Source: Rheinheimera sp. MM224 (GTDB taxonomy: Bacteria > Pseudomonadota > Gammaproteobacteria > Enterobacterales > Alteromonadaceae). Taken from it: a stretch of DNA of 64,000 nt. The notes below the pieces were generated by a model. The model was not told the DNA's origin and ran no database searches. It was given only the letters and a program-made list of their open reading frames with translations. This document shows positions 38,990-51,351 of this stretch, one piece after another; positions within the stretch are counted from its first letter, which is position 1, and each line of letters begins with the position of its first letter. A program made the position numbers and the translations under genes. The stretch covers positions 2,779,001 through 2,843,000 of the forward strand of contig NZ_OX352320.1 of NCBI RefSeq assembly GCF_947090785.1, in the 5' to 3' direction.

Positions 38990-39084
38990 GGGCTGTTGTT
39001 ATTGATTTGATTCAGCGGGAAAAGCAAAGCTAAAGCGATGTCAGCTTTGCCTCCGTTGCTTTTGTCTACCTGTATCATCACTTT

Positions 39085-39225
39085 ATGAAGCCGACAGTGC
39101 TTGTACATCTGGACGAATATACAGTGTTATTTGCTTTTACCAGAAAACAGGCACGCTTTGGACAAACCAACAGGCACATTTATCTGTTGCTGAAGAAGGA
39201 AAAACACTCTAATTTAGATACTTAG
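39085..39225 (+). CDS. possible 46-aa open frame before the first attachment site
   Basis: Starts ATG AAG CCG and runs 46 codons to TAG: MKPTVLVHLDEYTVLFAF..., lysine-rich towards the end. I do not recognise it. There is no clear ribosome-binding site. It ends 15 bases before the first attC-like site, so it might be the remnant or the gene of a leading cassette. The rest of the 38990-39406 gap holds only a hairpin (GCAAAGCT/AGCTTTGC at 39024-39050) that may terminate the GH140-like transcript. Confidence 0.25.
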   Translation: MKPTVLVHLDEYTVLFAFTRKQARFGQTNRHIYLLLKKEKHSNLDT

Positions 39226-39240
39226 AGCGGACCAGACTAA

Positions 39241-39400
39241 AAATAACAGGCCAGATAAAAGTAATAATGTGCCAGCACGCTTTTGGTTGCAGTGATCAGT
39301 GGTTGATTGTAATTAATCAGTTTTTATCAATACGTTAAAGCTGGCGGGTCATCTGGTATAACCAGAGAAAGCGTGCTGGCACAATATACAAATGTTAGGT
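39241..39400 (+). other. candidate left-boundary attC/attI-like site
   Basis: Ends in TGTTAGGT, where GTTAGGT fits the integron crossover core GTTRRRY; TAACA at 39244 can pair with TGTTA at 39393. Inside, TGTGCCAGCACGCTTT (39268-39283) is perfectly complemented by AAAGCGTGCTGGCACA (39368-39383). The cruciform is longer than most attC sites (160 bp), so it could be an unusual attC or the remains of an attI. Confidence 0.45.
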
Positions 39401-39406
39401 AATCAT

Positions 39407-39811
39407 ATGAATAAGTGTATATTTCTGGCCTTTTTATTAATTTCATTCGGCATTAATGCTGTTGAAATAAAGCCATTCCCCCGAGCGAAGATAACTGTTG
39501 AGCAATGGCAAGAATACTTTAATAAAGTAAGCAATGATTTTGGCGAAACAAAAAGAACTTATGAAGATCAGAATTTAGTCGTTTTCTCAAATGATGAATT
39601 GCGTGCAAATTTTGCTTTCACCACAAAAAATCATCCTGCGCATCCTGCTTGGGTGACCAGATATGTAACCCAGAGCAACGACTCGGTTAATATTGCTCAG
39701 ATAGGCTACTTTGCGGGTGATGAAGCACCTTTCGCAAAGCTGTTTCAAGAGTATGCAAAACTAAACGACAGAGTTAAAGAAAACTTAGGGCTAGAAAATG
39801 GTACAAATTAA
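39407..39811 (+). CDS. integron cassette gene 1: secreted hypothetical protein
   Basis: 134 aa from the ATG at 39407; an ATG five codons earlier lies within the crossover core of the preceding site. A signal peptide (about 1-18, MNKCIFLAFLLISFGINA) is followed by a small hydrophilic domain with no motif I recognise (EQWQEYFNKVSNDFG, HPAWVTRYVTQSND). Base use is more AT-rich than the flanking chromosomal genes. The gene is bounded by a GTTAGGT core on the left and attC1 on the right, starting 6 bases after its stop codon: the compact layout of a gene cassette. Confidence 0.75.
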   Translation: MNKCIFLAFLLISFGINAVEIKPFPRAKITVEQWQEYFNKVSNDFGETKRTYEDQNLVVFSNDELRANFAFTTKNHPAHPAWVTRYVTQSNDSVNIAQIGYFAGDEAPFAKLFQEYAKLNDRVKENLGLENGTN

Positions 39812-39817
39812 GAAAGA

Positions 39818-39916
39818 CCCTAACAAGTTACTTAATTTCGTTCCGGCCACGAAAAGCATTGCCTCCACGGGACTGCCTACGGTGCGCTGCGGCAGCCCAT
39901 TAGTAATGCGTTATGC
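39818..39916 (+). other. attC1 recombination site
   Basis: 99 bases beginning CCCTAACAAGTTACTTAAT and ending ATTAGTAATGCGTTATGC. The outer arms pair (TAAC with GTTA, TTACTTAAT with ATTAGTAAT), and the inner part ACTGCC...GGCAG forms the apical stem. Nearly the same sequence recurs in attC2 and attC5. Confidence 0.8.
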
Positions 39917-39931
39917 AAAAGAAGTGAATCG

Positions 39932-40288
39932 GTGAAATTTTCTAAAGTAAAAAACAGATATATAAAATTGTTTAGCCTTTTTGTGCTGTCTTGCTTTCTG
40001 ACGTGGTCAATCGGCAGGCCGCAGGTTGAAATGGCTCATAGAATTTCCTACTCCACTTGCAGCGGCATATCGCCCTCATCATCCTATGAATCCATAAGGA
40101 GTATGTTCGGTGATTTGGATGCTCTGAAGTATCCAAAAATTACGGATTATAGGTCGTCGGTAGTATTCCCATTTTTCGTATACAGTGATGGCGGTATTGG
40201 GTCTTGCAAATTCAAGGAAACGACGTTTTGGTTTTTAGGATTTGTTTTCCCCATTTACAGTACTTATTCATATGCTATTGATAACTAG
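39932..40288 (+). CDS. integron cassette gene 2: membrane-anchored hypothetical protein
   Basis: 118 aa from a GTG at 39932, 15 bases after the attC1 core; no in-frame ATG is closer. One hydrophobic helix near the N-terminus (about 11-26, IKLFSLFVLSCFLTWSI) suggests membrane anchoring or a signal sequence, and the C-terminal end is again hydrophobic (FWFLGFVFPIYS). Three cysteines in the middle (YSTCSGIS, GSCKF). No family recognised. AT-rich and followed 6 bases later by attC2. Confidence 0.65.
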   Translation: MKFSKVKNRYIKLFSLFVLSCFLTWSIGRPQVEMAHRISYSTCSGISPSSSYESIRSMFGDLDALKYPKITDYRSSVVFPFFVYSDGGIGSCKFKETTFWFLGFVFPIYSTYSYAIDN

Positions 40289-40294
40289 CGTATT

Positions 40295-40393
40295 GCATAA
40301 CAAGTTGCTTAATTTTGTTCCGGCCACAAATAGCGTGGCCGGAACTGGACTGCCTACGCTTCGCTACGGCAGCCAATTAGCAAAGTGTTATGT
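40295..40393 (+). other. attC2 recombination site
   Basis: 99 bases beginning GCATAACAAGTTGCTTAAT and ending ATTAGCAAAGTGTTATGT. Arms pair as in attC1; the centre carries GTTCCGGCCAC...GTGGCCGGAAC and TGCCTACG...CGGCAGCC stems. It is a close relative of attC1 and attC5. Confidence 0.82.
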
Positions 40394-40396
40394 GCC

Positions 40397-40753
40397 ATGG
40401 AGGTAGCTATTAAACCGAACGCAGATAGTTGGCACTTGATCATTAAAAGTGCAGCGTTTCCGATATTTCTAGTTCTATTAGCTGCATTAGCGGGCGTTCA
40501 TATCGTCGAATTTGATACTTCAAAGTTTGAGTCATGGTTCGCTTGCTTTAGCTATACAGCGTTATTGCTTGCAACTTTAAGTGAAGTAAAAGAAAAACCG
40601 CAAAAGAAAAACTGGTTCATTAACCAAAACACTAAAACAGGGAAGCACACTTTTTCAGTTTGGTCTCTGCGTTGGTTAAAATTGTGGGTGTTTATTTCAT
40701 TAGTTGTTTTTGTTTTTTTCGTTCTTGGGGCGATCGGCATAAATGGCACATAA
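40397..40753 (+). CDS. integron cassette gene 3: two-to-three-helix membrane protein
   Basis: 118 aa from the ATG at 40397, just after the attC2 core (an in-frame GTG at 40385 lies inside the site). Hydrophobic helices at about residues 20-36 and 43-60 are followed by a basic loop (EVKEKPQKKNWF) and a last helix at about 95-113 (LWVFISLVVFVFFVLGAIG). Not recognised. Its stop codon is already part of attC3 (CATAAC), which is typical for compact cassettes. Confidence 0.65.
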   Translation: MEVAIKPNADSWHLIIKSAAFPIFLVLLAALAGVHIVEFDTSKFESWFACFSYTALLLATLSEVKEKPQKKNWFINQNTKTGKHTFSVWSLRWLKLWVFISLVVFVFFVLGAIGINGT

Positions 40754-40865
40754 CAAACCACTGTAGTCACTCGCTGGCGCTCGTTGGGACACAAATATGC
40801 AGGCTCCCTTCGCTTCGCTCTGTATTGTAGCCTGCATGTTTGTGCCCCTAAGTGCGGCGTTATGT
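40748..40865 (+). other. attC3 recombination site
   Basis: 118 bases from ACATAAC to GTTATGT. Central inverted arms GGGACACAAATATGCAGGCT and AGCCTGCATGTTTGTGCCCC nearly pair over their full length. Its sequence is unrelated to attC1, 2 and 5 apart from the ends, the usual pattern for attC sites of different cassette origin. Confidence 0.85.
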
Positions 40866-40880
40866 GTCATAGAGCATCGA

Positions 40881-41210
40881 ATGGAAATTGAAGCTAAATT
40901 ACAAAGTAAGCTTGAAAAGATTTTTCCTGAGCAAAGTGAAAGGGAGAAAGCTACAGAGGTTTTGGCTGAGTACGGAAAAGAAACCTACGAACAAGAACCT
41001 ATTCGTGTCCGTTTGGCGATACTCAAGATGGCTGGCCCAAGTATTGAAAAATTGCATGAGTTTACTAGTGCTGCGAAAGGTGACTTTCGTGATGTTTTGT
41101 CATGGGCAGAGTATCCTCGGCAAAGTAAGCATTGGTCTGCAACTGGTGCAAAAAAAGAAAAGCTGGTAAGTGCCGACTTAAATGAGTACGAAACATGGTT
41201 AAACACATAA
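40881..41210 (+). CDS. integron cassette gene 4: soluble hypothetical protein
   Basis: 109 aa from the ATG at 40881, 15 bases after the attC3 core. The frame is open further upstream through attC3, but translation there would read the recombination site, so the later start is preferred. It is charged and helical (MEIEAKLQSKLEKIFPEQSEREKATEVL), with AAKGDFRDVLSWAEYPRQ in the second half. It has no signal peptide. The overall look recalls small helical cassette proteins of unknown role. Its stop codon overlaps attC4. Confidence 0.65.
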   Translation: MEIEAKLQSKLEKIFPEQSEREKATEVLAEYGKETYEQEPIRVRLAILKMAGPSIEKLHEFTSAAKGDFRDVLSWAEYPRQSKHWSATGAKKEKLVSADLNEYETWLNT

Positions 41211-41277
41211 CAAGCAAAGGCAGCATCGCCCTGCGGGCTGGACGCGCTAACGCGCGCCGCTGCTTTGGGCGTTATGT
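41205..41277 (+). other. attC4 recombination site (short)
   Basis: 73 bases from ACATAAC to GTTATGT. The inverted arms CAAAGGCAGC and CCGCTGCTTTG flank a central GGGC...GCGCGC region. It is the shortest site of the array and not related in its centre to the others. Confidence 0.8.
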
Positions 41278-41291
41278 GGCGTGGAGATAAA

Positions 41292-41681
41292 TTGAAAACC
41301 TCAAGAATCGTCAAATACACTTTCGTCATATTAGTAGCACTTACAGCATTAAGTACATTTACGAGTATGGTAATCGGCGTCGACAATTTAGCGGCTCTTT
41401 CGTTTGGCGAGTATTTTATATCTCAATTACTACCGCCATCTATGTTAGCAGTAGTCATGTATGCGCTCATGGCGAAACGAGACGTAACTAGAGCATGGAG
41501 CTATGCTGCCAGTGTATTTTTGTTTGGCTTTTTATTAGGCACTTTAATCCTTTCATTGCTAATGCAAGAACTGTATATCCCACCAACATGGTTCGTAGAT
41601 CTGCCTTTGTCCATCGCCTCAGCTATTGCTGGGACTTTAGCCGGGATAAAGTGGGGTATAAAAAATGCAACTGCCACATAA
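41292..41681 (+). CDS. integron cassette gene 5: four-helix membrane protein
   Basis: 129 aa from a TTG at 41292, chosen because GGAG lies 5 bases upstream; the in-frame ATG at 41274 falls within the attC4 crossover core. Four hydrophobic segments (about residues 8-29, 44-62, 70-91 and 102-120) make it an integral inner-membrane protein. It ends IKWGIKNATAT. I do not recognise a family, though the layout resembles small chromosomal membrane proteins of the DUF type. Its stop codon overlaps attC5. Confidence 0.65.
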   Translation: MKTSRIVKYTFVILVALTALSTFTSMVIGVDNLAALSFGEYFISQLLPPSMLAVVMYALMAKRDVTRAWSYAASVFLFGFLLGTLILSLLMQELYIPPTWFVDLPLSIASAIAGTLAGIKWGIKNATAT

Positions 41682-41760
41682 CAAGTTGCTTAATTTCGTT
41701 CCGGCCACAAAAAACGTGGCCTACGCTGCGCTGCGGCAGCCAATTAGCAAAGCATTATAA
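41676..41760 (+). other. attC5 recombination site with decayed core
   Basis: About 85 bases, clearly homologous to attC1 and attC2 (TAACAAGTTGCTTAATTTCG, GTTCCGGCCACAAA, CGGCAGCCAATTAGCAAAGC), but the 3' core reads ATTATAA instead of GTTATGC, and about 14 bases are missing from the centre relative to attC2. The change of the crossover GTT to ATT probably blocks recombination here. Confidence 0.75.
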
Positions 41761-41775
41761 GCCTAACGAGCTACA

Positions 41776-41973
41776 TTGATCTCTGAACCAGCAAACAGCA
41801 TTTTAGTAATCATTATTTGCATAGTAGGCGCGTTGCACTTTGGCGGTATTCTTGCAACTTCCAAAAAATCGCCAGCCTTAACATGGATGAAAGCAAAACA
41901 TCCTTATTTTCCAAAGATAATTGTCATAATGCTGGGATTAGTAGCAGTTACAAAAGTAGTTGGGTTGTTGTAG
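41776..41973 (+). CDS. integron cassette gene 6: small membrane protein
   Basis: 65 aa from a TTG at 41776; no ATG is available early in the frame. Two hydrophobic helices (about 9-26 and 47-64) are separated by a short basic loop (TSKKSPALTWMKAKHPYFPK). Not recognised. It lies between attC5 and attC6, and the absence of other open frames in this cassette supports it as the gene. Confidence 0.5.
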   Translation: MISEPANSILVIIICIVGALHFGGILATSKKSPALTWMKAKHPYFPKIIVIMLGLVAVTKVVGLL

Positions 41974-42001
41974 TGCATTATTTAAACACTCAGCATTGGG
42001 C

Positions 42002-42085
42002 TTATAACAAGGCCTGGCACGGCGACGTTTTTTTTGTTGCGGCTACGCCTTCACGACAAAGCCGCGCGTGATGGCGGCGTTAACT
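42002..42085 (+). other. attC6 recombination site, right end of the array
   Basis: 84 bases from TTATAAC to GTTAACT. The inner arms GGCGACG...TTTTTTTTGTTGCGGC and GCCG...GGCGGCG are imperfect. No further attC-like site follows, and the next gene is an ordinary chromosomal regulator, so this marks the end of the cassette array. Confidence 0.7.
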
Positions 42086-42243: not shown

Positions 42244-43176
42244 TCACACCTTGACCTGCTTTCTCATCGCCTGAGGCACCTGCCCCACTATGCGCAGAAA
42301 AGAGCGTCTCATTCTGTCTCTGTCACCAAAGCCTGTTTCGATGGCAATTACATCCAGCGGATGGTTGCTTTCTTCCATCATCAGTCTGGCCATTTCCACT
42401 CTGAGTTTCTCAATGGCTTTGGCTGGTGGCACACCGGTTTCTGCGGTAAAAATGCGGCTGAACTGCCGTGGGCTAATGTGTGCGGCCTCTGCCAAAGCCT
42501 CTACAGACAATTCAGACTTCAGGTTTTGTCTGGCAAAATTCAGTGCTTTTTGAATACGGTCAGAGCGGGGTTGCAAGTCAATCAAGGTGGAAAACTGCGA
42601 TTGTCCTCCGGCTCTTTGATGATAAACCACCAGTTTTCTGGCAACACTTCTGGCGAGTTCAACGCCATGGTCGGCTTCAATCAATGCAATAGCTAAATCT
42701 ATGGCTGCAGTCATACCAGCCGACGTCCAGACAGGCCCGTCGGACAGATAAATTTTGTCCTGTTCTACTTTTACTGCAGGATAATTTTGCTGCAATTTTT
42801 GCGCGTAAAACCAATGTGTGGTGGCTTTACGGCCATCAAGAATACCAGCCTGAGCCAATACAAAAGCAGCGGTGCAAGGTGCGGCTAAGCGTCGAACCCA
42901 GGTCAGAGAAGATTGCAGATATAGACAAACCGGCTCTGTGGCTTGATCAAGATCAGCACCAGCCCCAACAAATAAGGTATCAAACTTGTACTGATCCATG
43001 GCTTCTGTTGCCACTTCAAAGCCAATAGAAGAGCGGATTAACCCACCCTGCTCCGAAATTAATTTCAACCTGTAAGCGTCCTTTTGCAAGCCACGATTGG
43101 CCATCTCAAAAGCAGAAGCAATAGCCAAGCTCATGATCTGAAAGCCAGGAAATACCAATATACCTATGCTGTGCAT
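42244..43176 (-). CDS. GlxA-type transcriptional regulator, AraC family
   Basis: 310 aa. The N-terminal two thirds (about 1-185) form a DJ-1/PfpI-like domain (IGILVFPGFQIMSLAIASAFEMAN) with the elbow region APCTAAFVLAQAGILDGRKATTHW, where the usual cysteine of the family is visible as C101. The C-terminal AraC DNA-binding domain (about 210-308) has two helix-turn-helix units: LSVEALAEAAHISPRQFSRIF and PLDVIAIETGFGDRDRMRRSF. The target is unknown; the divergent DUF2798 gene is a candidate. A palindrome lies between the two. Confidence 0.93.
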   Translation of the reverse strand: MHSIGILVFPGFQIMSLAIASAFEMANRGLQKDAYRLKLISEQGGLIRSSIGFEVATEAMDQYKFDTLFVGAGADLDQATEPVCLYLQSSLTWVRRLAAPCTAAFVLAQAGILDGRKATTHWFYAQKLQQNYPAVKVEQDKIYLSDGPVWTSAGMTAAIDLAIALIEADHGVELARSVARKLVVYHQRAGGQSQFSTLIDLQPRSDRIQKALNFARQNLKSELSVEALAEAAHISPRQFSRIFTAETGVPPAKAIEKLRVEMARLMMEESNHPLDVIAIETGFGDRDRMRRSFLRIVGQVPQAMRKQVKV

Positions 43177-43224
43177 CGTTTTGCTCCCAGTCAGCCATTA
43201 CCGCCCGTCATAAAAAGACGTTTA

Positions 43225-43242
43225 TACGACATTTAAGTCGTA
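43225..43242. promoter_or_regulatory. palindrome in the divergent araC-like/DUF2798 gap
   Basis: TACGAC-ATTTAA-GTCGTA lies 49 bases from the regulator start and 56 from the DUF2798 start. A TATAGT at 43255-43260 could serve as a -10 towards DUF2798. It could be the binding site of the regulator, but this is inference. Confidence 0.4.
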
Positions 43243-43297
43243 ATCGCAAAATTATATAGTGACACTAGCAAAGCAGGCAAAAGTGAGAGGAAGGAAA

Positions 43298-43759
43298 ATG
43301 AGTACAGTGACCAAAAGCCGTAATCTGAAAAGCCGGGTTGTGTTTGCCTTTTTGATGTCGCTAATCACCACATCAGTAGTGGTCTTTGTCACAGTCTGGT
43401 CACAGCTGGGTTGGTCTGAGGCGTTTTTCCAGAAATGGCTTAGCATATTCTGCATCGACTATCCTGTGGTGGTAGTGATGGTTCTCTTTTTTGGCCCGAG
43501 GTTACAACAACGTTTTTTCATTTTTAAAGCGGGCTCACCACATCCCACCAAAGCCAGCCTGCTCCGTTTTGCTTTGGTGATGGCAAGTTTGACTGTGTCA
43601 GCCGCTTGTTTTGTTGGTTTGTTGCTTAATCTGGGCCTGAGCTCGCAACTATTCCATAACTTTATTCAGGTATTTCCTTTTGCTTACCTCACTGCTATTC
43701 CGTTTATTTTATTGCTGGCGCCAAGGCTGCAGGCTCGCGTGGATCTATGGCTGAATTAA
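43298..43759 (+). CDS. DUF2798 family membrane protein
   Basis: 153 aa from the ATG at 43298, with AGGAAGGAAA upstream. Two similar halves, each of two helices, can be seen: SRVVFAFLMSLITTSVVVFVTV with the following DYPVVVVMVLFFGPRLQQR, and LRFALVMASLTVSAACFVGLLL with PFAYLTAIPFILLLAPRLQAR. This duplicated pattern ending in PRLQxR is that of DUF2798. The function is unknown. It is divergent from the GlxA-type regulator. Confidence 0.88.
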   Translation: MSTVTKSRNLKSRVVFAFLMSLITTSVVVFVTVWSQLGWSEAFFQKWLSIFCIDYPVVVVMVLFFGPRLQQRFFIFKAGSPHPTKASLLRFALVMASLTVSAACFVGLLLNLGLSSQLFHNFIQVFPFAYLTAIPFILLLAPRLQARVDLWLN

Positions 43760-43919
43760 CTATCAGGCTTTCAACCAATAAAAATACGTCGGTTTGGTAA
43801 ACGGATCCAAACCCGCTGTTGCGACTAAATTCCCATAAGGGTAATGCTACGCTGCACTAATTCAGCGCTCTCAAAACAGGCTAACATTTTCGCCAAAGGT
43901 TTTAATTCAGTGCAGCAGC

Positions 43920-44750
43920 CTACCCCAACAACCTCTGCTTCAGCGCTCTGGCATAAGTGCGGCTGACCTTCAGCACCTTTTGATTGTGCAATACGGCGTT
44001 GTATTCGGAGTTACAGAGCGGTTGTAGTTTTTCGATATAAGTCAGGTTCACTACAGTTGATTTATGAATGCGGACAAAGACGTCAGGTAAGCGCTCATCA
44101 ATCAGGCTTTTTAGCCGGGCACGCATCACGTAAGTCTCAACTTTGGTATGCACACACATATAATCACCAGCGGCGTCAATCCAGATAATGTCCTGATAAG
44201 GGATCAACTGAATTGGATTACGTCCGTCCTGGATCACCAGTTTTTGCCTTTCTATACAATATTGCGGCTCAACGGCTTCTGTATTTTTATCTGCATAGCC
44301 CTCTGTTTTCTGCTCCTGCTCTTCTTTGCTTAGTTCGGCTACAGCAGCAAGCAGCTGTGCTTTGTCGGCTCTGTTGGTTGTTAATTCACTTACCCTGGTT
44401 ATGGCTTCAGCTAAACGTTCACGTTTGACCGGTTTTAATAAGTAATCAAGGGCTCGCACTTCAAAGGCTTTTACCGCGTGTTGGTGAAAGGCGGTGACAA
44501 AAACTATGGCCGGGCAAAGTTCGGGTTGAAGTTGCCGGATCAGATCAAAACCGCTTTGCTCTGGCATTTCAATATCCAGAAAAATCAGATCAGGTGTCTG
44601 GACATTGATCAAAGTGATAGCTTCAGCGACGCTGTTCGCTTCCCCAATCACCCGAATTTGCGGAAATGCTTCCAGCCGCAATCGCAGGCCTTCAATGGCG
44701 GCAGGCTCGTCATCCACGATCAGCGTGTTTAATAGTCTTACACTGCTCAC
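43920..44750 (-). CDS. LytTR family response regulator
   Basis: 276 aa from a GTG at 44750 that overlaps the kinase stop codon (GTGA). The receiver domain (about 8-125) has VDDEPAAIEG, phosphoacceptor Asp in DLIFLDIEMPEQSG, and the conserved lysine in LLKPVKRERLAEA. A linker rich in E and A follows, then a LytTR DNA-binding domain (about 178-275: IIWIDAAGDYMCVHTKVETYVMR, FVRIHKSTVVNL). It is the partner of the kinase at 44747-45826. Likely targets are the GH3 and receptor genes on the same strand upstream, by position. Confidence 0.93.
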   Translation of the reverse strand: MSSVRLLNTLIVDDEPAAIEGLRLRLEAFPQIRVIGEANSVAEAITLINVQTPDLIFLDIEMPEQSGFDLIRQLQPELCPAIVFVTAFHQHAVKAFEVRALDYLLKPVKRERLAEAITRVSELTTNRADKAQLLAAVAELSKEEQEQKTEGYADKNTEAVEPQYCIERQKLVIQDGRNPIQLIPYQDIIWIDAAGDYMCVHTKVETYVMRARLKSLIDERLPDVFVRIHKSTVVNLTYIEKLQPLCNSEYNAVLHNQKVLKVSRTYARALKQRLLG

Positions 44751-45826
44751 GTTTTTTGCCCGCCTGCTAATTCTTTTGGAATACAGATCTGGATCCAGGC
44801 CCCCTCTTCCTCTCTGTTGCCAAAACTAAAGGAGCTTTGATCAGGGTAAATCAGCGCTAAACGTTCTTCACAATTATGCAGGCCTATACCAGTAGATGGA
44901 CCGGTAGAGCCAGCATCAGGTTGTTCTGTAAAACCGCTGCCGTTATCCAGCATTCGGATCTGTAACTGGCCGTTTTGCAGACTAAAGTGAACTGAAATGG
45001 CGTAGCTTTGTTGCGACATACGCATGCCATGTTTCAGCGCATTTTCTGCCAGCGGTTGCAGTAATAACGAAGGCACCAGATAGTGTTTGACCTCCTCATC
45101 AGCAACAATAGATAGATTCAGCTTGTTTCTGAACCGACACTGCTCCACATCAAAGTAGGTTTGTAAAATTTGTATTTCTTCCGCCACTGTCACTTTCGCC
45201 AACGGATCTGTGTACAGGCTGTAGCGCAGCAAATCACAGAGCTTTTCCAGCATAGACACTGCATGTTGATTGTCCTGCTTTAAAATTAAGGTGCAAATGG
45301 CATTAATGCTGTTAAACATAAAATGAGGATTCAACTGATAGCGCAGCATTTTTAACTGAGCTTCTTTGGCCAGATGAATAGCCTCTGCGGCTTTTTGCCG
45401 CTGTTCCATGGTTTCAAAAGTGGCTTTGGAGGCGTAATACAAGGCAGTCCAGGTCAATAAAATGGTTAATGAGGCTGAGTTCCAGGTGCCAAAATCAAAC
45501 CAAGTCATGGCCTGCCAGATCTGGCCATAAAGCCATTGCAAGGTCAGCCATTTCCATTGTGTCCAGATCAGGCAACTCAACAGGAGCACCAGCAGATGCC
45601 ACAAAATTTTTAAGCGGGTTTCCTGCACACTGATACGGCCATACCAGTGCCGCAGCAGCAGGGTTAGCATAAAACCAAAGCTGGTATCCAGCAGCAAATG
45701 AGGCAGGCCTACCTGCCAGGGTTCCTGACTGGGAATTTTAATCATCAGGGCTGTCAGCACAGCATACACAGCCCAGCCGCCCGCCTGACAAAGCCAGAAC
45801 AATTTATTACGACTCAAAGATTGCAA
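44747..45826 (-). CDS. LytS/YehU-type sensor histidine kinase
   Basis: 359 aa using the TTG at 45826, which has GGAG five bases upstream; a further TTG at 45817 is possible, and upstream codons would begin inside a terminator-like hairpin. Four hydrophobic helices fill the first 130 residues. The cytoplasmic His_kinase domain has the phosphoacceptor in LRYQLNPHFMFNSINA, followed by a HATPase-type domain with PLAENALKHGM and DNGSGF...GIGLHNCEERL. It pairs with the LytTR regulator (4-base overlap) and probably responds to a sugar or envelope cue; the signal is unknown. Confidence 0.88.
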   Translation of the reverse strand: MQSLSRNKLFWLCQAGGWAVYAVLTALMIKIPSQEPWQVGLPHLLLDTSFGFMLTLLLRHWYGRISVQETRLKILWHLLVLLLSCLIWTQWKWLTLQWLYGQIWQAMTWFDFGTWNSASLTILLTWTALYYASKATFETMEQRQKAAEAIHLAKEAQLKMLRYQLNPHFMFNSINAICTLILKQDNQHAVSMLEKLCDLLRYSLYTDPLAKVTVAEEIQILQTYFDVEQCRFRNKLNLSIVADEEVKHYLVPSLLLQPLAENALKHGMRMSQQSYAISVHFSLQNGQLQIRMLDNGSGFTEQPDAGSTGPSTGIGLHNCEERLALIYPDQSSFSFGNREEEGAWIQICIPKELAGGQKT

Positions 45827-45851
45827 CACCACTCCATTCCAATTTAAAAGC

Positions 45852-45889
45852 AACAAAGAGTGGTGCCGCTACCTACACCACTCTTTGTT
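45852..45889 (-). terminator. 14-bp perfect hairpin between the GH3 gene and the two-component genes
   Basis: AACAAAGAGTGGTG (45852-45865) and CACCACTCTTTGTT (45876-45889) pair exactly around a 10-base loop. On the minus strand TTGCTTTTAAATT follows, so it can act as the GH3 terminator or as an attenuator. It begins 16 bases after the GH3 stop and ends 25 bases before the chosen kinase start. Confidence 0.75.
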
Positions 45890-45905
45890 TTTAATTGTGA
45901 TTAAA

Positions 45906-48548
45906 CTAATTGGCACAACCTATCAGCACAAAGTCCTTAGCCGCCGCTTCCGTGCTCTTTTGTGCAGAAAGCACAATATCAGCCACAGCCAGGCTATGTT
46001 GGCCGCTTGAGCTAAACAACACAGCATCTGAAATCTCTTTCGCAGAGGAGACTGCAGCACAATCCAGGGCCAGTTCCACAGTATGCCATACACCTGGCTT
46101 TAAGTGCGCAAGTGGCTCTGTCAGTGACAACTGGCGCTGACAGGCACCTTGCTGATCACAAAGCACGGCAAGATTTAGTTCTGTTGGTACTTGCTGGTCA
46201 AAACGTATGCTAAAACGCAGTGCTTTGGCTGTGTTGTATTTGGATGCAGCAACCGGCTTGATATAACGCAGGCTGGCTGATGCCTTTGACGCAGCATTCC
46301 AGCGCAACTGACGTCCATCCTCCTGATAGGACAAGTTCACCGACTGCATAGCTAAACTTTTGCCATCTAAGCTGACACCAAAAGGTGTAGTAATCAAAGT
46401 AGCTGTGTTTTCTGAGCCCGCTGCGCTGGCGTCCGCTAACACCCAGGCCATATCTGCAGTTAAGTTGCGTAAAAACAGCGGCTGAATACCATCATCAGAA
46501 CCTGCTGCTGTGGCAGCAGATACCTGCTCAGAGAATTGGCCCAGTTCTTTGTGGTCGGCGTAGGTTAAACCATAACCATAAGCAAACAGTGGGTCATAGT
46601 TGGTATCGCCTTTGTTCAATACAAACTGATGGTCAAAACGTGGCCAGGAAAAACTCAGTTTACCCTGAAAATCATAACGGGCTTTGCCCTGAGTATCAGC
46701 AAACAACACATCAGCCACGCCTTGTCCTTCTGAGCCAGGCAACCAGGCCACCACAAAGGCGTCCGATGCGTTCAGCTCTTTATTGGTCCACAGCGGCCGA
46801 CCTGTTAAAAATACCGTCACCACTGGAATACCTTGTTGTTTTAGCTTTTTGATCAAGGCTAAATCGCGTTTGTCGCCATGCTGGTATTCCAGCTGCTGAA
46901 TATCACCAAACCATTCGGCATAAGGGTTTTCACCTATAACCACTACTGCTACATCAGGTTTTTTGCTGTAGTTGCCATCCACCGCCAGCTCCACTTTGCC
47001 ACCAGCGGCTTCTACCTGCTGACGTATGCCCTGATAAACAGAAGTGGCATTGGGAAAATCGGCATTGGTATTGTCTGTGCCCTGCCAGGACACGCTCCAG
47101 CCACCTGCTTGTTTCGCTATGTTATCTGCGCCATCACCAGCCACCAGCACCTGGCTTTTTGGTGATAATGGCAGTACTTTTTGGTTGTTTTTTAACAGCA
47201 CCAAAGATTTTCGCACCGCTTCCCGTGCTAATTCTTTATGCTCCTGACTGTTAAATACAGCCATTTGAGCAGATTCAACCCGGCTGGACGGTTTACCACG
47301 CTCCAGCAGGCCCCAGCGAATTTTTGCCCGTAAAAAGCGGCGCACTGCATCATCAATCCGCGCTTGCGGAATAATGCCCTGCTCCACCTGACGAATGGTG
47401 TTGTGGTAAAAAGCTTCGAAGTGCTCAGGCACCATCAGCACGTCCACACCGGCATTAATAGCACCGGCACACTGCTCCAGATCGCAGCCTTCGACAAACT
47501 TATGGCCGTTCCAGTCAGTGACCACAAAACCATCAAAACCCATTTGGTTTTTCAGCACCTCGGTCAGCATGTATTTGTGACCATGCAAGCGCACACCATT
47601 CCAGCTGTTAAAAGACACCATCACAGACTGCACACCAGCCTGAATGGCCGTCATATAACCTGCCGCATGAATATCACGCAGGCCTTGTTCATCAATCAGG
47701 GTGTCACCGCGGTCTATGCCTTTTTCAGTGCCGCCGTCGCCAACAAAGTGTTTGGCGGTGGCGATACGGCCAAAACCCTGCAGAAAATCTTTGTTCAGAG
47801 TGCCCTGCAAACCTGACACCATCTGGCCAGCATAAGCTTTGACTATGGCAGGGTCTTCAGAATAACTCTCGTAAGTACGACCCCAACGGTCATCCCGCAC
47901 CACAGCCACTGTAGGCGCAAAGCTCCATTCAATACCTGTGACCGCGACTTCTTTGGCGGTAGCCACACCTATACGGTGCACCAATTCCGGATCATGGGCA
48001 GCGCCCAAACCTATATTGTGTGGAAACAAGGTAGCGCCATAGACATTGCTATGGCCATGCATAGCGTCTGTGCCCCAAATAGTCGGAATACGGCTGCCAT
48101 CTTGTTTCGCATCAACAGAGGCCTCATACATTTCGTCGGCGTATTTTAACCAGACTTCAGCCGTTGCTTGTTTTTGACCATAAGGCGCTGTATTGCCGCC
48201 ATTCAGGTAAGAGCCGAAGCCATACTTGCGCATTTGCGCCAAAGACATATAACCAATTTCCGGCTGGATCATCTGCGCCACTTTTTGCTGCAGTGTCATG
48301 CGGGCCAGGATCTGGTCCAGCAGTTTTTCCATCTCTGGGTCACGCTTTAAGCCGGTATTGACATAAGGCCACTGCACTGTTTGCGGTAAAGCGGCAGCCT
48401 GGGCAGTTCTTACTTCGGCCTTGTTTCCTGCCTGAGTGTCAGCGGCTGTGGCTTGAGCCGCAGTTACCAGCGCTAAGCCCAGCAATGCCACTTTTTGCTT
48501 TTTGTGGAGGGTTTTAATAAGAGTTTTAGTGCTCTTGTTACTGATCAT
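45906..48548 (-). CDS. glycoside hydrolase family 3 beta-glucosidase, exported
   Basis: 880 aa from the ATG at 48548 (AAGGA eight bases upstream; other in-frame ATGs lie 2 and 8 codons earlier). A signal peptide ends near ATAADTQ (about residue 40). The GH3 N-terminal barrel has QMIQPEIGYM, GTDAMHGHSNVYGATLFPHNIGLG, KHFVGDGGTEKGIDRGD and the nucleophile Asp in FVVTDWNGHKF. The C-terminal alpha/beta sandwich includes VIGENPYAEWFGD. An extra beta-rich domain (about 690-880) is typical of the exo-1,4-/1,3-beta-glucosidase subgroup. It works in the periplasm on short glucans, probably those imported by the receptor encoded just upstream. Confidence 0.94.
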   Translation of the reverse strand: MISNKSTKTLIKTLHKKQKVALLGLALVTAAQATAADTQAGNKAEVRTAQAAALPQTVQWPYVNTGLKRDPEMEKLLDQILARMTLQQKVAQMIQPEIGYMSLAQMRKYGFGSYLNGGNTAPYGQKQATAEVWLKYADEMYEASVDAKQDGSRIPTIWGTDAMHGHSNVYGATLFPHNIGLGAAHDPELVHRIGVATAKEVAVTGIEWSFAPTVAVVRDDRWGRTYESYSEDPAIVKAYAGQMVSGLQGTLNKDFLQGFGRIATAKHFVGDGGTEKGIDRGDTLIDEQGLRDIHAAGYMTAIQAGVQSVMVSFNSWNGVRLHGHKYMLTEVLKNQMGFDGFVVTDWNGHKFVEGCDLEQCAGAINAGVDVLMVPEHFEAFYHNTIRQVEQGIIPQARIDDAVRRFLRAKIRWGLLERGKPSSRVESAQMAVFNSQEHKELAREAVRKSLVLLKNNQKVLPLSPKSQVLVAGDGADNIAKQAGGWSVSWQGTDNTNADFPNATSVYQGIRQQVEAAGGKVELAVDGNYSKKPDVAVVVIGENPYAEWFGDIQQLEYQHGDKRDLALIKKLKQQGIPVVTVFLTGRPLWTNKELNASDAFVVAWLPGSEGQGVADVLFADTQGKARYDFQGKLSFSWPRFDHQFVLNKGDTNYDPLFAYGYGLTYADHKELGQFSEQVSAATAAGSDDGIQPLFLRNLTADMAWVLADASAAGSENTATLITTPFGVSLDGKSLAMQSVNLSYQEDGRQLRWNAASKASASLRYIKPVAASKYNTAKALRFSIRFDQQVPTELNLAVLCDQQGACQRQLSLTEPLAHLKPGVWHTVELALDCAAVSSAKEISDAVLFSSSGQHSLAVADIVLSAQKSTEAAAKDFVLIGCAN

Positions 48549-48605
48549 GAACATCTTCCTTCGCGTGGTCACAACGCCCCACCCGATCAGGTGTTTAGCG
48601 CCAGA

Positions 48606-48640
48606 TAAAAAGAAACCGCTCAGTACGACGGAGCGGTTTC
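48606..48640 (-). terminator. rho-independent terminator of the receptor gene
   Basis: On the minus strand GAAACCGCTC...GAGCGGTTTC is followed by a T run. It lies between the receptor stop codon and the GH3 start, so GH3 expression needs read-through or its own promoter. Confidence 0.88.
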
Positions 48641-48657
48641 TGTACTAGTGGTTAAGC

Positions 48658-51351
48658 TTAGAAGTTAAAGCCTGCACGCACCCCGTAATACCTTGGCATA
48701 TTAAAACTGCCTTTGGGGAAGCCCTTACCTGTGTTACTCCATTGCTGGACAGTTTCGTCCGTGGCGTTGCTGACAAAGAGTTCAGCAAACCAGACCTGGC
48801 CGACCGGCTCATATTTCAGTGAAGCGTTGGCTATGGTATGAGCGTCTCTGCGATCGTCTATATAACCTACAGCTTCGTCAGACACTGCAAAGTCCATATC
48901 GTCCAGATGTCTGTCGACGTTCCAAATGGTGTTGTAGGACTTATCTTTCCAACTCACATTAAACCAGCCGTGGATAAAACCGTAGCTGCCCAAATCAAAG
49001 CTATGGGTGTAGCTTAAGTTGGCAGTGTATTTCGGCACCATCGCCAGCTGATTGCCTTTAAGGTTAGTGGTCAGCATGTCGTTTTCAGGGTCAATAGACT
49101 CTTCATAAGACAAACCAAACAGATACTCAGGGTCGTAATCCCACTTGGTGATCCAATCTTCTGTAACGCGGGCATCGGTGTAGGTGACATAACCATTGAT
49201 ACGGCCTGCTGGATAAGGTTTCCAGTCAAATTCCAGCTCTAAACCTTTGATGGTCGAACCCGGTACGTTTTGAGTGTAGTAAGCCACTACCGGCATATTG
49301 CGGTAATCCAGCACAGGCTGACCGTTTTCATCCAGCACAGGGCTGCCATCCGGGTTTTCTACCGGAGCCAGACGTTCCACAGTGCCGACAGAACCCACTG
49401 AGGCATACTGCATATCTGTGTAGTCGGTATAGAAAAACACAGCTTGTAAGTTCAGCGAGTTATCTAACAAGCTGGTTTTTGTACCCAACTCATAAGTCAC
49501 AACCTGCTCAGGATCAAACTGGGTTTCAATACGTTGTACCTGACCTGTTCTGTCATTAACCACTTCAAACACATCGCCTATACCACCAGCTTTAAAGCCT
49601 GAAGCTACATAACCATAGATCATGGTGTTTTCGCTGAAATCGTAGTCAAGGCCAAGACGGAAATCATTGTTTTTCCAACTGCCTTTGTTGTCATTGGCAA
49701 AAGACGATTTATAGATAGACGGATCTTCAAAGGCATTGGTCGGTAATTCTGATAATACAGTGCGGTTAAACCAACCCGGCGCACAACCATCGGCATTGGA
49801 ACAACGCAGAGTGCGGCCGCCTTTGTCTTCTTTGGTTTCGTCACTGAAACGGTAACCCAGAGTCAGGTGCAGATCAGAAGTTAAGTTATACGTCGCCTGA
49901 CCAAAAGCCGCCAAAGCGTCGGTAGAACGATCGGGTTGATCCCAAAACGCCTTATCATCCATAGGGTTGTCGTAATAACCCACTGTGGTGGTTTTTTCAT
50001 GAAACAGGTTTACGCCTGCAATCCAGACTAAATCACCCAGCTCATCCGACTGCAGTTGCAGCTCTGTAGAGTAAGAACGTGCACCTGTGCCATCGAGGAA
50101 AAACATAGCGCCGTCCCAAACATCCAGGCCAGTCTCAATATCCTGAGCCGATTGGCGCTTCATATCTTCATAGCCTGCCAACCAGACCAGATCCAGCTCG
50201 TCGGTCAGTTCATAGTTTAAAGTGTTACGCAGATAGGTAATGTCCAATTCCAGTTTACCAGGCACGTTGACCACGGCTTGATAAGTGTTGTCGCTTGGTA
50301 AAAAATTAGAACAATCGCCCCCCATCTCGGTAGGTCTGCCGCGTAATTTGTCACAGTTGACCATGTCCACTGAACCGGCACTGTCATTTTTGTAATACTG
50401 AAAAACGGTGTGGTTGGAGAAATTACCTGCTGCAGGTTCCCATAAGGTGCTGACGCGAAATGAATGCTCATTGGCGTTGTTGTAAAAATCGCTTTTATCG
50501 GCCGCAGTTAAAGCCCGCACTTTTTGTGCTTCAGGATCTGTACCTGCCGCATCTATCCACCAGTTTTCGCGTTGGGTCAAGGTTTGGCCTATGCCCTGAT
50601 AGGAGTTTTCAGAAATGACTTCTGCGTCCAGCACACCAGCTGGCAGATAACGGGTGTCATATTGGTTCGGGTCGAAGTAGCCTTCGACATAAGAATCACG
50701 CTTCAGACCTTTGCCGGAGAAACGCACGGCAAAATCATCTGATACCGCCAGGTTAAACATGCCACCCACACTTTTAGCATTAAATTTACCCATCTCGGTA
50801 TTCAGGTTACCAAAAGTGCTGCTCATATCCGGCTTGGCCGTCAGTACGTTAATGCTGCCGACTGTAGAGTTACGGCCAAACAAAGTCCCTTGCGGACCAC
50901 GCAAAGCTTCAACCCGCTCTACGTCATACATCAACGCCAGAGCGCCCTGCATACGTGGTGAATAAATACCGTCCAGGTGCACGCCTACAGCAGGGTCACC
51001 CAGTTCAGTAATGTTGGTGGAACGAATACCACGCATGGTAATAACCGGAGCCGCCTGCTCTGAGGAAACGGCGATGTCCAGACCCGGCACTAAATTGGCG
51101 ATATCCACCACATTGTTAACGCCGCTTTGTTGCAGTTGGGCTGCACTCAGGGCTGAAATAGCCACCGGTGTTTCCATCAGTTTGGTTTTGCGTTTGGTGG
51201 CCGTGACTGAAATGACTTCCAGCTCGGTTTCATTGGCAGTGGCCTGTGCTGTAGTTTCTGTGGTGCTTTTGTTGACATCAGCTTGCTGTGCCACGGCGGA
51301 AAAAGCGCATGCCATCGCTATCGCAAGCGAAAGTGCGTTACGTTTATGCAT
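48658..51351 (-). CDS. TonB-dependent outer-membrane receptor
   Basis: 897 aa. A signal peptide (about 1-21, ending SAVAQ) is followed by a probable TonB box (ELEVISVTATKRK), a plug domain (about 58-175, with VVDIANLVPGLDI, ITMRGIR and the VERVEALRGPQGTLFGRNSTVGSINV block), and a long beta-barrel with aromatic strand ends to the C-terminal YYGVRAGFNF. Size and the GRNSTVG-type plug match receptors often associated with carbohydrate uptake in Alteromonadales. It is followed by the GH3 gene and a two-component system, pointing to a glucan or oligosaccharide ligand rather than a siderophore. AGGGGT precedes the ATG. Confidence 0.93.
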   Translation of the reverse strand: MHKRNALSLAIAMACAFSAVAQQADVNKSTTETTAQATANETELEVISVTATKRKTKLMETPVAISALSAAQLQQSGVNNVVDIANLVPGLDIAVSSEQAAPVITMRGIRSTNITELGDPAVGVHLDGIYSPRMQGALALMYDVERVEALRGPQGTLFGRNSTVGSINVLTAKPDMSSTFGNLNTEMGKFNAKSVGGMFNLAVSDDFAVRFSGKGLKRDSYVEGYFDPNQYDTRYLPAGVLDAEVISENSYQGIGQTLTQRENWWIDAAGTDPEAQKVRALTAADKSDFYNNANEHSFRVSTLWEPAAGNFSNHTVFQYYKNDSAGSVDMVNCDKLRGRPTEMGGDCSNFLPSDNTYQAVVNVPGKLELDITYLRNTLNYELTDELDLVWLAGYEDMKRQSAQDIETGLDVWDGAMFFLDGTGARSYSTELQLQSDELGDLVWIAGVNLFHEKTTTVGYYDNPMDDKAFWDQPDRSTDALAAFGQATYNLTSDLHLTLGYRFSDETKEDKGGRTLRCSNADGCAPGWFNRTVLSELPTNAFEDPSIYKSSFANDNKGSWKNNDFRLGLDYDFSENTMIYGYVASGFKAGGIGDVFEVVNDRTGQVQRIETQFDPEQVVTYELGTKTSLLDNSLNLQAVFFYTDYTDMQYASVGSVGTVERLAPVENPDGSPVLDENGQPVLDYRNMPVVAYYTQNVPGSTIKGLELEFDWKPYPAGRINGYVTYTDARVTEDWITKWDYDPEYLFGLSYEESIDPENDMLTTNLKGNQLAMVPKYTANLSYTHSFDLGSYGFIHGWFNVSWKDKSYNTIWNVDRHLDDMDFAVSDEAVGYIDDRRDAHTIANASLKYEPVGQVWFAELFVSNATDETVQQWSNTGKGFPKGSFNMPRYYGVRAGFNF

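Follow-up and report, generated by a model that had tools for sequence, protein, structure and literature searches.

Integrons typically have one attI site close to the integrase gene intI, as the available text of PMC9024848 describes them, and arrays of at least two attC sites without an integrase are classified as CALINs (clusters of attC sites lacking integron integrases). In Xanthomonas, CALINs are found at seven chromosomal loci (PMC12444791, partial text). Here, we examined a 64-kb stretch of the genome of Rheinheimera sp. MM224 (positions 2,779,001 to 2,843,000 of its single 4,642,311-base contig; hereafter, the window) in which six gene cassettes follow one another on the plus strand. 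With six attC sites and no intI nearby, this array would be reported as a CALIN, and the original prediction, made from the sequence alone, described it as such. The designation stands as far as the sites and the missing integrase are concerned, but it is incomplete, since an attI of a dispersed family at the head of the array, by which the locus differs from a CALIN, had been overlooked. Judging from comparisons with a set of 22 Rheinheimera genomes that includes MM224 itself (labeled G0xx, with loci labeled Lxxx), the locus is likely to be a stand-alone integron docking platform with six captured cassettes, one of a dispersed family of integrase-less Rheinheimera attI sites that would be filled in trans.

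Other described systems share part of this organization. The window system has an attI, a candidate promoter, an attC array, and small genes without a recognized family in common with a sedentary chromosomal integron, from which it differs by having no integrase and several attI copies per genome. The Xanthomonas CALINs also lack an integrase and occupy conserved positions distant from the integron; the part of PMC12444791 available to us does not mention an attI heading them, in which they would differ from the window array. Delta-attI gene cassettes of mobile integrons likewise carry attI sequence away from its usual place, but there, a partial attI replaces the attC at the cassette end (PMC12901181, partial text), whereas the window platform heads an array.

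The attI element was found by a search of the region against the 22 genomes, which revealed a dispersed stretch just before the first cassette. The element spans positions 39072 to 39398 of the window (approximately 325 bp, plus strand) and is a homologue, without intI, of the intI-attI intergenic region of congeners, a 69 to 73% identical copy being located directly upstream of the integron integrase gene in five genomes. In alignments of 11 dispersed and 5 intI-linked copies, and also of 52 copies, the sequences run to ...GCACAATATACAAATG^TTA (the caret marks the crossover) and then diverge, except for copies sharing their first cassette, e.g., L121 and L127. A shared sequence that ends at one junction and has copies beside intI displays the anatomy of an attI, and on these alignments, the window array is headed by an attI homologue that extends up to crossover base G 39394. 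The attI core, GCACAATATACAAATGTTA, is located at positions 39379 to 39397 (plus strand), with the crossover after G 39394 at the junction G(39394)^TTA. The most conserved block of the element, TTGCTG-N17-TAATTT (positions 39187 to 39215, plus strand), is a candidate promoter that is kept in most solo and intI-linked copies and partly kept in the enterobacterial homologues described below; we infer that it would act as the cassette promoter (Pc). A perfect 15-bp inverted repeat (fold z score of -5.1) has its left arm at positions 39269 to 39283 and its right arm at positions 39368 to 39382 (plus strand), within attI and 5′ of the core, and similar arms are found in most copies. By eye, the window element also contains a 46-codon frame, and copy L110 has a stop in that frame. 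Chance off-target insertion by IntI at attG, as described in the available parts of PMC12901181 and PMC12444791, would require the conserved upstream sequence to be a coincidental repeat. We consider this highly improbable and rejected it because an attI homologue precedes the junction: approximately 280 to 325 bp homologous to the intI-linked attI lie upstream of it, ending at the same base in many places.

This element belongs to a family of attI sequences, family A, whose 19-base core (up to two mismatches) has 51 matches in 13 of the 22 genomes; the reversed control pattern had no match in the same genomes. Together with one copy from another genus, these matches form the 52 family A copies analyzed here. 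A search of 147 genomes of the taxonomic family gave a strong match in one genus other than Rheinheimera and a weak 36-base match in another such genus, and the extended core pattern was found in the named GTDB contigs in 21 stretches, all from Rheinheimera or from two gammaproteobacterial metagenome-assembled genomes. The exact core pattern had no match in viral contigs, nor did the element, by blastn, in phages. A second family, B, came to light at the position orthologous to the window in G018, where the array is headed by another sequence, which is homologous to the attI of a second integrase family. The family B pattern has 49 matches in 13 of the 22 genomes and no control matches. Searches of the open-licence PMC literature turned up no report of stand-alone attI copies, as far as titles and the opening lines of abstracts show, and no paper on Rheinheimera together with attI.

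Most copies in both families stand apart from any integrase. An IntI coding sequence lies upstream (within approximately 1.5 to 2.2 kb) of 5 of the 52 family A copies, and 10 of the 49 family B copies are beside intI by their coordinates (9 of 30 fetched copies, within 1.5 kb). Taken together, 15 of 100 attI matches adjoin an integrase and 85 stand alone; eight more integrases of the genus adjoin neither attI pattern. MM224 itself carries five family A and five family B matches and no integrase, and its family A cores at 559,874 and 2,126,185 are altered immediately past the crossover base. CALINs are usually explained as ordinary degraded integrons, in which the adjacent intI of each array was deleted and attI and cassettes were left behind; against this explanation, solo copies outnumber intact integrons in both attI families. 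A tblastn search with IntI up to 2.2 kb upstream of the 52 family A copies gave matches with an E value of 1 or lower only at the five intact integrons, leaving 47 non-linked copies with no relics, and no relic was found within 1.5 kb of the 21 unlinked family B copies among the 30 fetched (one 40-residue match, with an E value of 0.47, was disregarded). In addition, the upstream flanks of family A, the only family for which positions were grouped, fall into 24 groups. Approximately 17 positions are left, a figure that depends on the 200-base threshold used for grouping, once two groups at the integron locus, three core-only rows, one from another genus, and one at the window position by its right flank (L110) are excluded. 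A tree of 52 attI rows, for which three rows were dropped beforehand and whose root is not known, separates ten rows from the integron locus from 39 solo and three enterobacterial rows (support, 100/100), so that the dispersed copies lie across a supported branch from the integron locus. Degradation in place therefore seems unlikely as a general account.

One possible case of degradation was found at the integron locus itself, where five genomes, MM224 included, keep an attI without intI. The integron locus of five congeners has its MM224 ortholog in the attI near 559.9 kb; attI and the gene beyond intI are collinear, with approximately 1.09 kb including intI in a congener versus 58 bp here, and the same intI-less state is seen in four other genomes. 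The original prediction had noted that no intI gene lies in the window, and this absence extends to the whole 4.64-Mb contig, in which no integron integrase exceeds the TIGR02249 cut-off (265 bits). The TIGR02249 matches are stretches that do not exceed 76 bits and come from two reading frames (315 and 305 amino acids), which we take to be Xer-like. On the docking-platform reading, IntI encoded at another locus would have inserted cassettes at the solo attI sites in trans by recombination between attI and attC, and the integrase of the ancestral integron, whose orthologous locus here lies at 559.9 kb, would have been lost in this strain. The window array would then be frozen unless an integrase arrives.

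To examine the attC sites, we built a covariance model, R1, from 36 attC ends of congeners and no site from MM224. With default filters, the only matches in the window with an E value below 1 were the six sites that the original prediction had placed in alternation with six small plus-strand genes, and the coordinates agree: attC 1 at 39818 to 39916 (E value of 4e-7), attC 2 at 40295 to 40393 (6e-7), attC 3 at 40748 to 40865 (7e-4), attC 4 at 41205 to 41277 (2e-8), attC 5 at 41676 to 41760 (8e-6; its crossover base is A rather than G), and attC 6 at 42002 to 42085 (0.01, the weakest), all on the plus strand. The sole additional match listed had an E value of 1.6. The count of covariation in R1 is strong (95.8% of cells paired) but in part circular, as its seeds were picked by arm pairing; the matches in the window escape this circularity because MM224 sites are absent from the model. 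Unconstrained folding of the bottom strand was better than that of shuffled sequences for sites 2, 3, and 4 (z scores of -6.7, -4.0, and -4.3, respectively). A genome-wide search, in which 150 of 1261 candidates were scored, gave at least 12 matches, 11 of them within approximately 4.1 kb downstream of solo attI sites and on the right strand; the twelfth, at 1,910,689, lies approximately 1 kb past a copy of the left-end motif described below.

In cassette arrays, the R′ bases after the crossover belong to the next cassette, so the first bases of a cassette are expected to be complementary, read in reverse, to that cassette's R″. In cassettes 1 to 6, 6, 9, 12, 9, 10, and 10 consecutive bases matched, respectively, counting the crossover base as G; as site 5 has an A, the true match of cassette 6 is 9. 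Cassette ends thus match over 9 to 12 consecutive bases in five of the six cassettes, and chance inverted repeats as the source of the six sites were ruled out by the R1 search together with this end matching. The sites at 39818 to 39916, 40295 to 40393, and 41676 to 41760 are closely related to a single attC type with repeated occurrences in the genus. Sites 3, 4, and 6 are unlike that type, which suggests that the array was probably put together from different cassette pools.

Comparison of arrays between loci and between species indicates that the cassettes move, since different arrays occupy orthologous positions and some of the sharing between positions is cassette exact. At the position orthologous to the window, G005, G009, G012, and G018 show similarity to some of the attC sites and none to the cassette genes (orthology rests on the left flank only for G009 and on the right flank, with another left neighbor, for G005). 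A gene order fixed in all relatives, which had been put forward as the outcome that would speak against a cassette array, is thus not what these genomes display. At another position, at 3.29 Mb, recognized by its left flank in six genomes, the right flank starts 1.6 to 5.0 kb past attI in the five genomes in which it was seen, and the terminal part of the array is common to G005 and G012. A strict test of end matching in the first cassette was applied to the 47 family A loci whose downstream sequence exceeded 1.1 kb. It was passed by 25 of them (4/4 intI-linked loci, 2/5 at the intI-less integron locus, and 19/38 others), compared to 22 of 1734 controls in which loci had exchanged their words, as well as 14 of 2671 random window starts. 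In family B, the test was passed by 10 of 18 loci (7 of them solo) versus 12 of 214 controls. A script that walked along arrays by loose criteria was set aside, as it also gave matches from 118 of 200 random starts.

Among 23 similar stretches found between positions, 6 have their start precisely at G^TT in each partner, and in a further 3, the start is within 5 nucleotides of it. One of the exact cases links an intI-linked array with a solo one: a cassette of the intI-linked array of G002 is the first cassette behind a solo attI in G015 (93% over 427 bp). Cassette 3 of the window is 95% identical over 369 bp, from its first base, to a stretch of G009 (L195, 2481 to 2849) that is part of an array preceded by a family B integron integrase. 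This similarity stops just after R″, indicating that the same gene has a different attC body in G009. Cassette 5 matches a stretch of G012 (L196) from its first base as well (75% over 422 bp).

A degenerate left-end motif, CTTTGTGCCARAAGCGGACATTG, is found in the window at positions 39077 to 39099 (plus strand), 317 bases 5′ of the crossover base; this copy has 10 mismatches when ungapped, most of which are accounted for, by eye, by a small deletion. With up to 7 mismatches, the motif occurs in 16 of the 52 family A copies, in 15 of them at 301 to 320 bases 5′ of the crossover and in L108 at 206, and the best match in 52 control stretches had 8 mismatches. In family B, a like motif (up to 6 mismatches) lies 228 to 234 bases 5′ of the pattern; 8 of the 21 unlinked copies have it, and the linked copies do not. 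Six mismatches were also reached in 3 of 30 control stretches. MITE-like (miniature inverted-repeat transposable element-like) integron mobilization units move integron parts without a transposase of their own and have terminal repeats and target duplications. No such features, and in particular no clean target duplication, were visible at the 3.29-Mb position, the sole location examined, where 116 bp in G020 correspond to 2.65 kb in MM224 and where the flanks diverge. The window position offers no clean empty site, as G020 has another gene there.

Three of 72,556 records, plasmids from Enterobacter, Pantoea, and Klebsiella, contain distant homologues of the element (67 to 78%), and a search with the Enterobacter copy gave matches in 3 of 5426 E. 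coli genomes. They lie among genes annotated as restriction, ATPase, GTPase, and toxin-antitoxin functions, with no annotated intI in the stretches shown, the plasmid annotation being incomplete. The HNH-endonuclease gene that comes after the Enterobacter copy is flanked by GTTAGCC and GGCTAAC, which is suggestive of cassette-like boundaries, although we estimate that such a 7-mer would occur by chance in approximately 5% of stretches as long as this one. On Pantoea plasmid pPAT9B05 (L175), four copies of the left-end motif (up to 5 mismatches) occur within 18 kb, one of them directly before the attI-like element and two adjoining large genes; in E. coli W284 (L178), two genes equal in length to these come after the element.

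These enterobacterial surroundings would fit an element whose main role is that of a mobile or regulatory leader of accessory genes in general and which serves as an attI only where an integrase uses it. The left-end motif is in keeping with such a leader in that 20 of the 31 motif loci analyzed lead to neither attI family, which weakened its candidacy as a specific terminus of attI elements, and some of the heads that it precedes are followed by RelA/SpoT-like, FRG-like, AAA-like, or DUF2971-like genes (names by eye). In Rheinheimera, however, the junction, the cassette ends, and the intI adjacency (five loci) behave as those of an attI, and no target duplication was seen at 3.29 Mb, the one location examined, so we regard this explanation as rather doubtful. 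At two motif loci of MM224, genes were named by eye: at 101,675 (L199), the motif is followed by a family B attI-like head and a RelA/SpoT-like gene, and at 1,909,620 (L217), it is followed by another non-coding head and an FRG-like gene. A broader proposal, which we put forward only tentatively, is that of a distributed integron: promoter-attI modules of two integrase families would be dispersed elements across the genus, with diverged relatives of one family in enterobacterial plasmids and defense-type islands, a partly shared left-end motif hinting at a common mobilization route, and filling in trans by an integrase that is lost and regained.

Several observations weigh against a docking platform filled in trans, or against parts of it. 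With filters off, R1 recovered no whole site in the window; it gave seven matches with E values of 1.5 or worse, two of which partly overlap sites 4 and 6. Bottom-strand folding of sites 1, 5, and 6 was no better than that of shuffled sequences (z scores of -0.2, -0.3, and +0.6, respectively). A consensus promoter scan did not report the TTGCTG-N17-TAATTT block. Apart from the core itself, little similarity is seen in 3 of the 51 family A matches, and 4 of the 30 fetched family B copies have no recognizable crossover core. The strict test was failed by 22 of the 47 family A loci, including that of the window, which fails by one mismatch in the 7-base R″ of cassette 1. Similar stretches did not start near the junction in both partners in 14 of 23 cases, four of which represent flank similarity of one compound locus, and solo-attI loci of G002 share identical stretches that are not cassette bounded (1231 bp between L105 and L107 and 341 bp between L103 and L105). 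The case for cassette movement, moreover, is built on comparisons of sequences between species. As for the enzyme, we infer that intI was lost at the integron locus rather than gained by the other genomes, a direction that the tree does not give, and in some genomes, an integrase at a distance could have gone unseen because the assembly is a draft.

The cassettes, all on the plus strand, each consist of a small gene, with start codons of our choice, followed by the corresponding attC site. Cassette 1 (39395 to 39910, 516 bp) carries a gene at 39407 to 39811 for a 134-residue product with a signal-like N terminus, and cassette 2 (39911 to 40387, 477 bp) carries one at 39932 to 40288 (118 residues). 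The product of cassette 3 (40388 to 40859, 472 bp; gene, 40397 to 40753) has 118 residues and two hydrophobic segments, whereas that of cassette 4 (40860 to 41271, 412 bp; gene, 40881 to 41210) has 109 residues and is predicted to be all helical. Cassette 5 (41272 to 41754, 483 bp; gene, 41292 to 41681) would encode 129 residues with four hydrophobic segments, and cassette 6 (41755 to 42079, 325 bp; gene, 41776 to 41973) would encode 65 residues with two. The stop codon ends 6 nucleotides 5′ of attC in genes 1 and 2, within attC in genes 3, 4, and 5, and 28 nucleotides 5′ of it in gene 6.

The proposal that four of the six products are membrane-bound or secreted agrees with their hydrophobicity, as products 1, 3, 5, and 6 have a 19-residue segment with a mean Kyte-Doolittle value of at least 1.6. 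None had been recognized at first, and none of the six reached the cut-off in Pfam or NCBIfam; the best PADLOC match had an E value of 0.012. Database matches numbered 72 for product 1, 15 for product 4, and 2 for product 3, one of the latter being without a source label and perhaps the window's own protein, and none of these matches bears a name beyond hypothetical protein. Structure models were confident for products 1 and 4 (pLDDT of 87 and 91, respectively), and neither matched a solved fold in the PDB at an E value of 0.001 or better.

Downstream of the array, a conserved right flank (43919 to 49467) is common to G005, G012, and G018 at this position and is found in most other genomes of the genus. 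Between attC 6 and this flank, the window contains a GlxA-like AraC-family regulator gene and a small membrane protein gene (42244 to 43759; names by eye) that are not at this place in G005, G012, and G018; in G005 and G012, the array stops approximately 90 bases short of the flank. At the gathering level, Rfam reported only five tRNAs in the window, corresponding to four tRNA-Glu genes and one tRNA-Ala gene in tandem at 71 to 550.

These results suggest that the two parts of an integron, its landing pad and its enzyme, are able to spread independently of each other. As IntegronFinder 2.0 detects no attI outside class 1 integrons according to the available text of PMC9024848, platforms of this kind would be missed by surveys relying on it. 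If 85 of the 100 attI matches in the genus indeed stand alone, the landing pad is inherited as a unit of its own; a single integrase could then serve many chromosomal sites, and cassettes could be expressed from many places. The diverged relatives in enterobacterial accessory regions may point to a connection of platforms of this type with the turnover of accessory genes, and some arrays now filed as decayed CALINs may be live docking sites.

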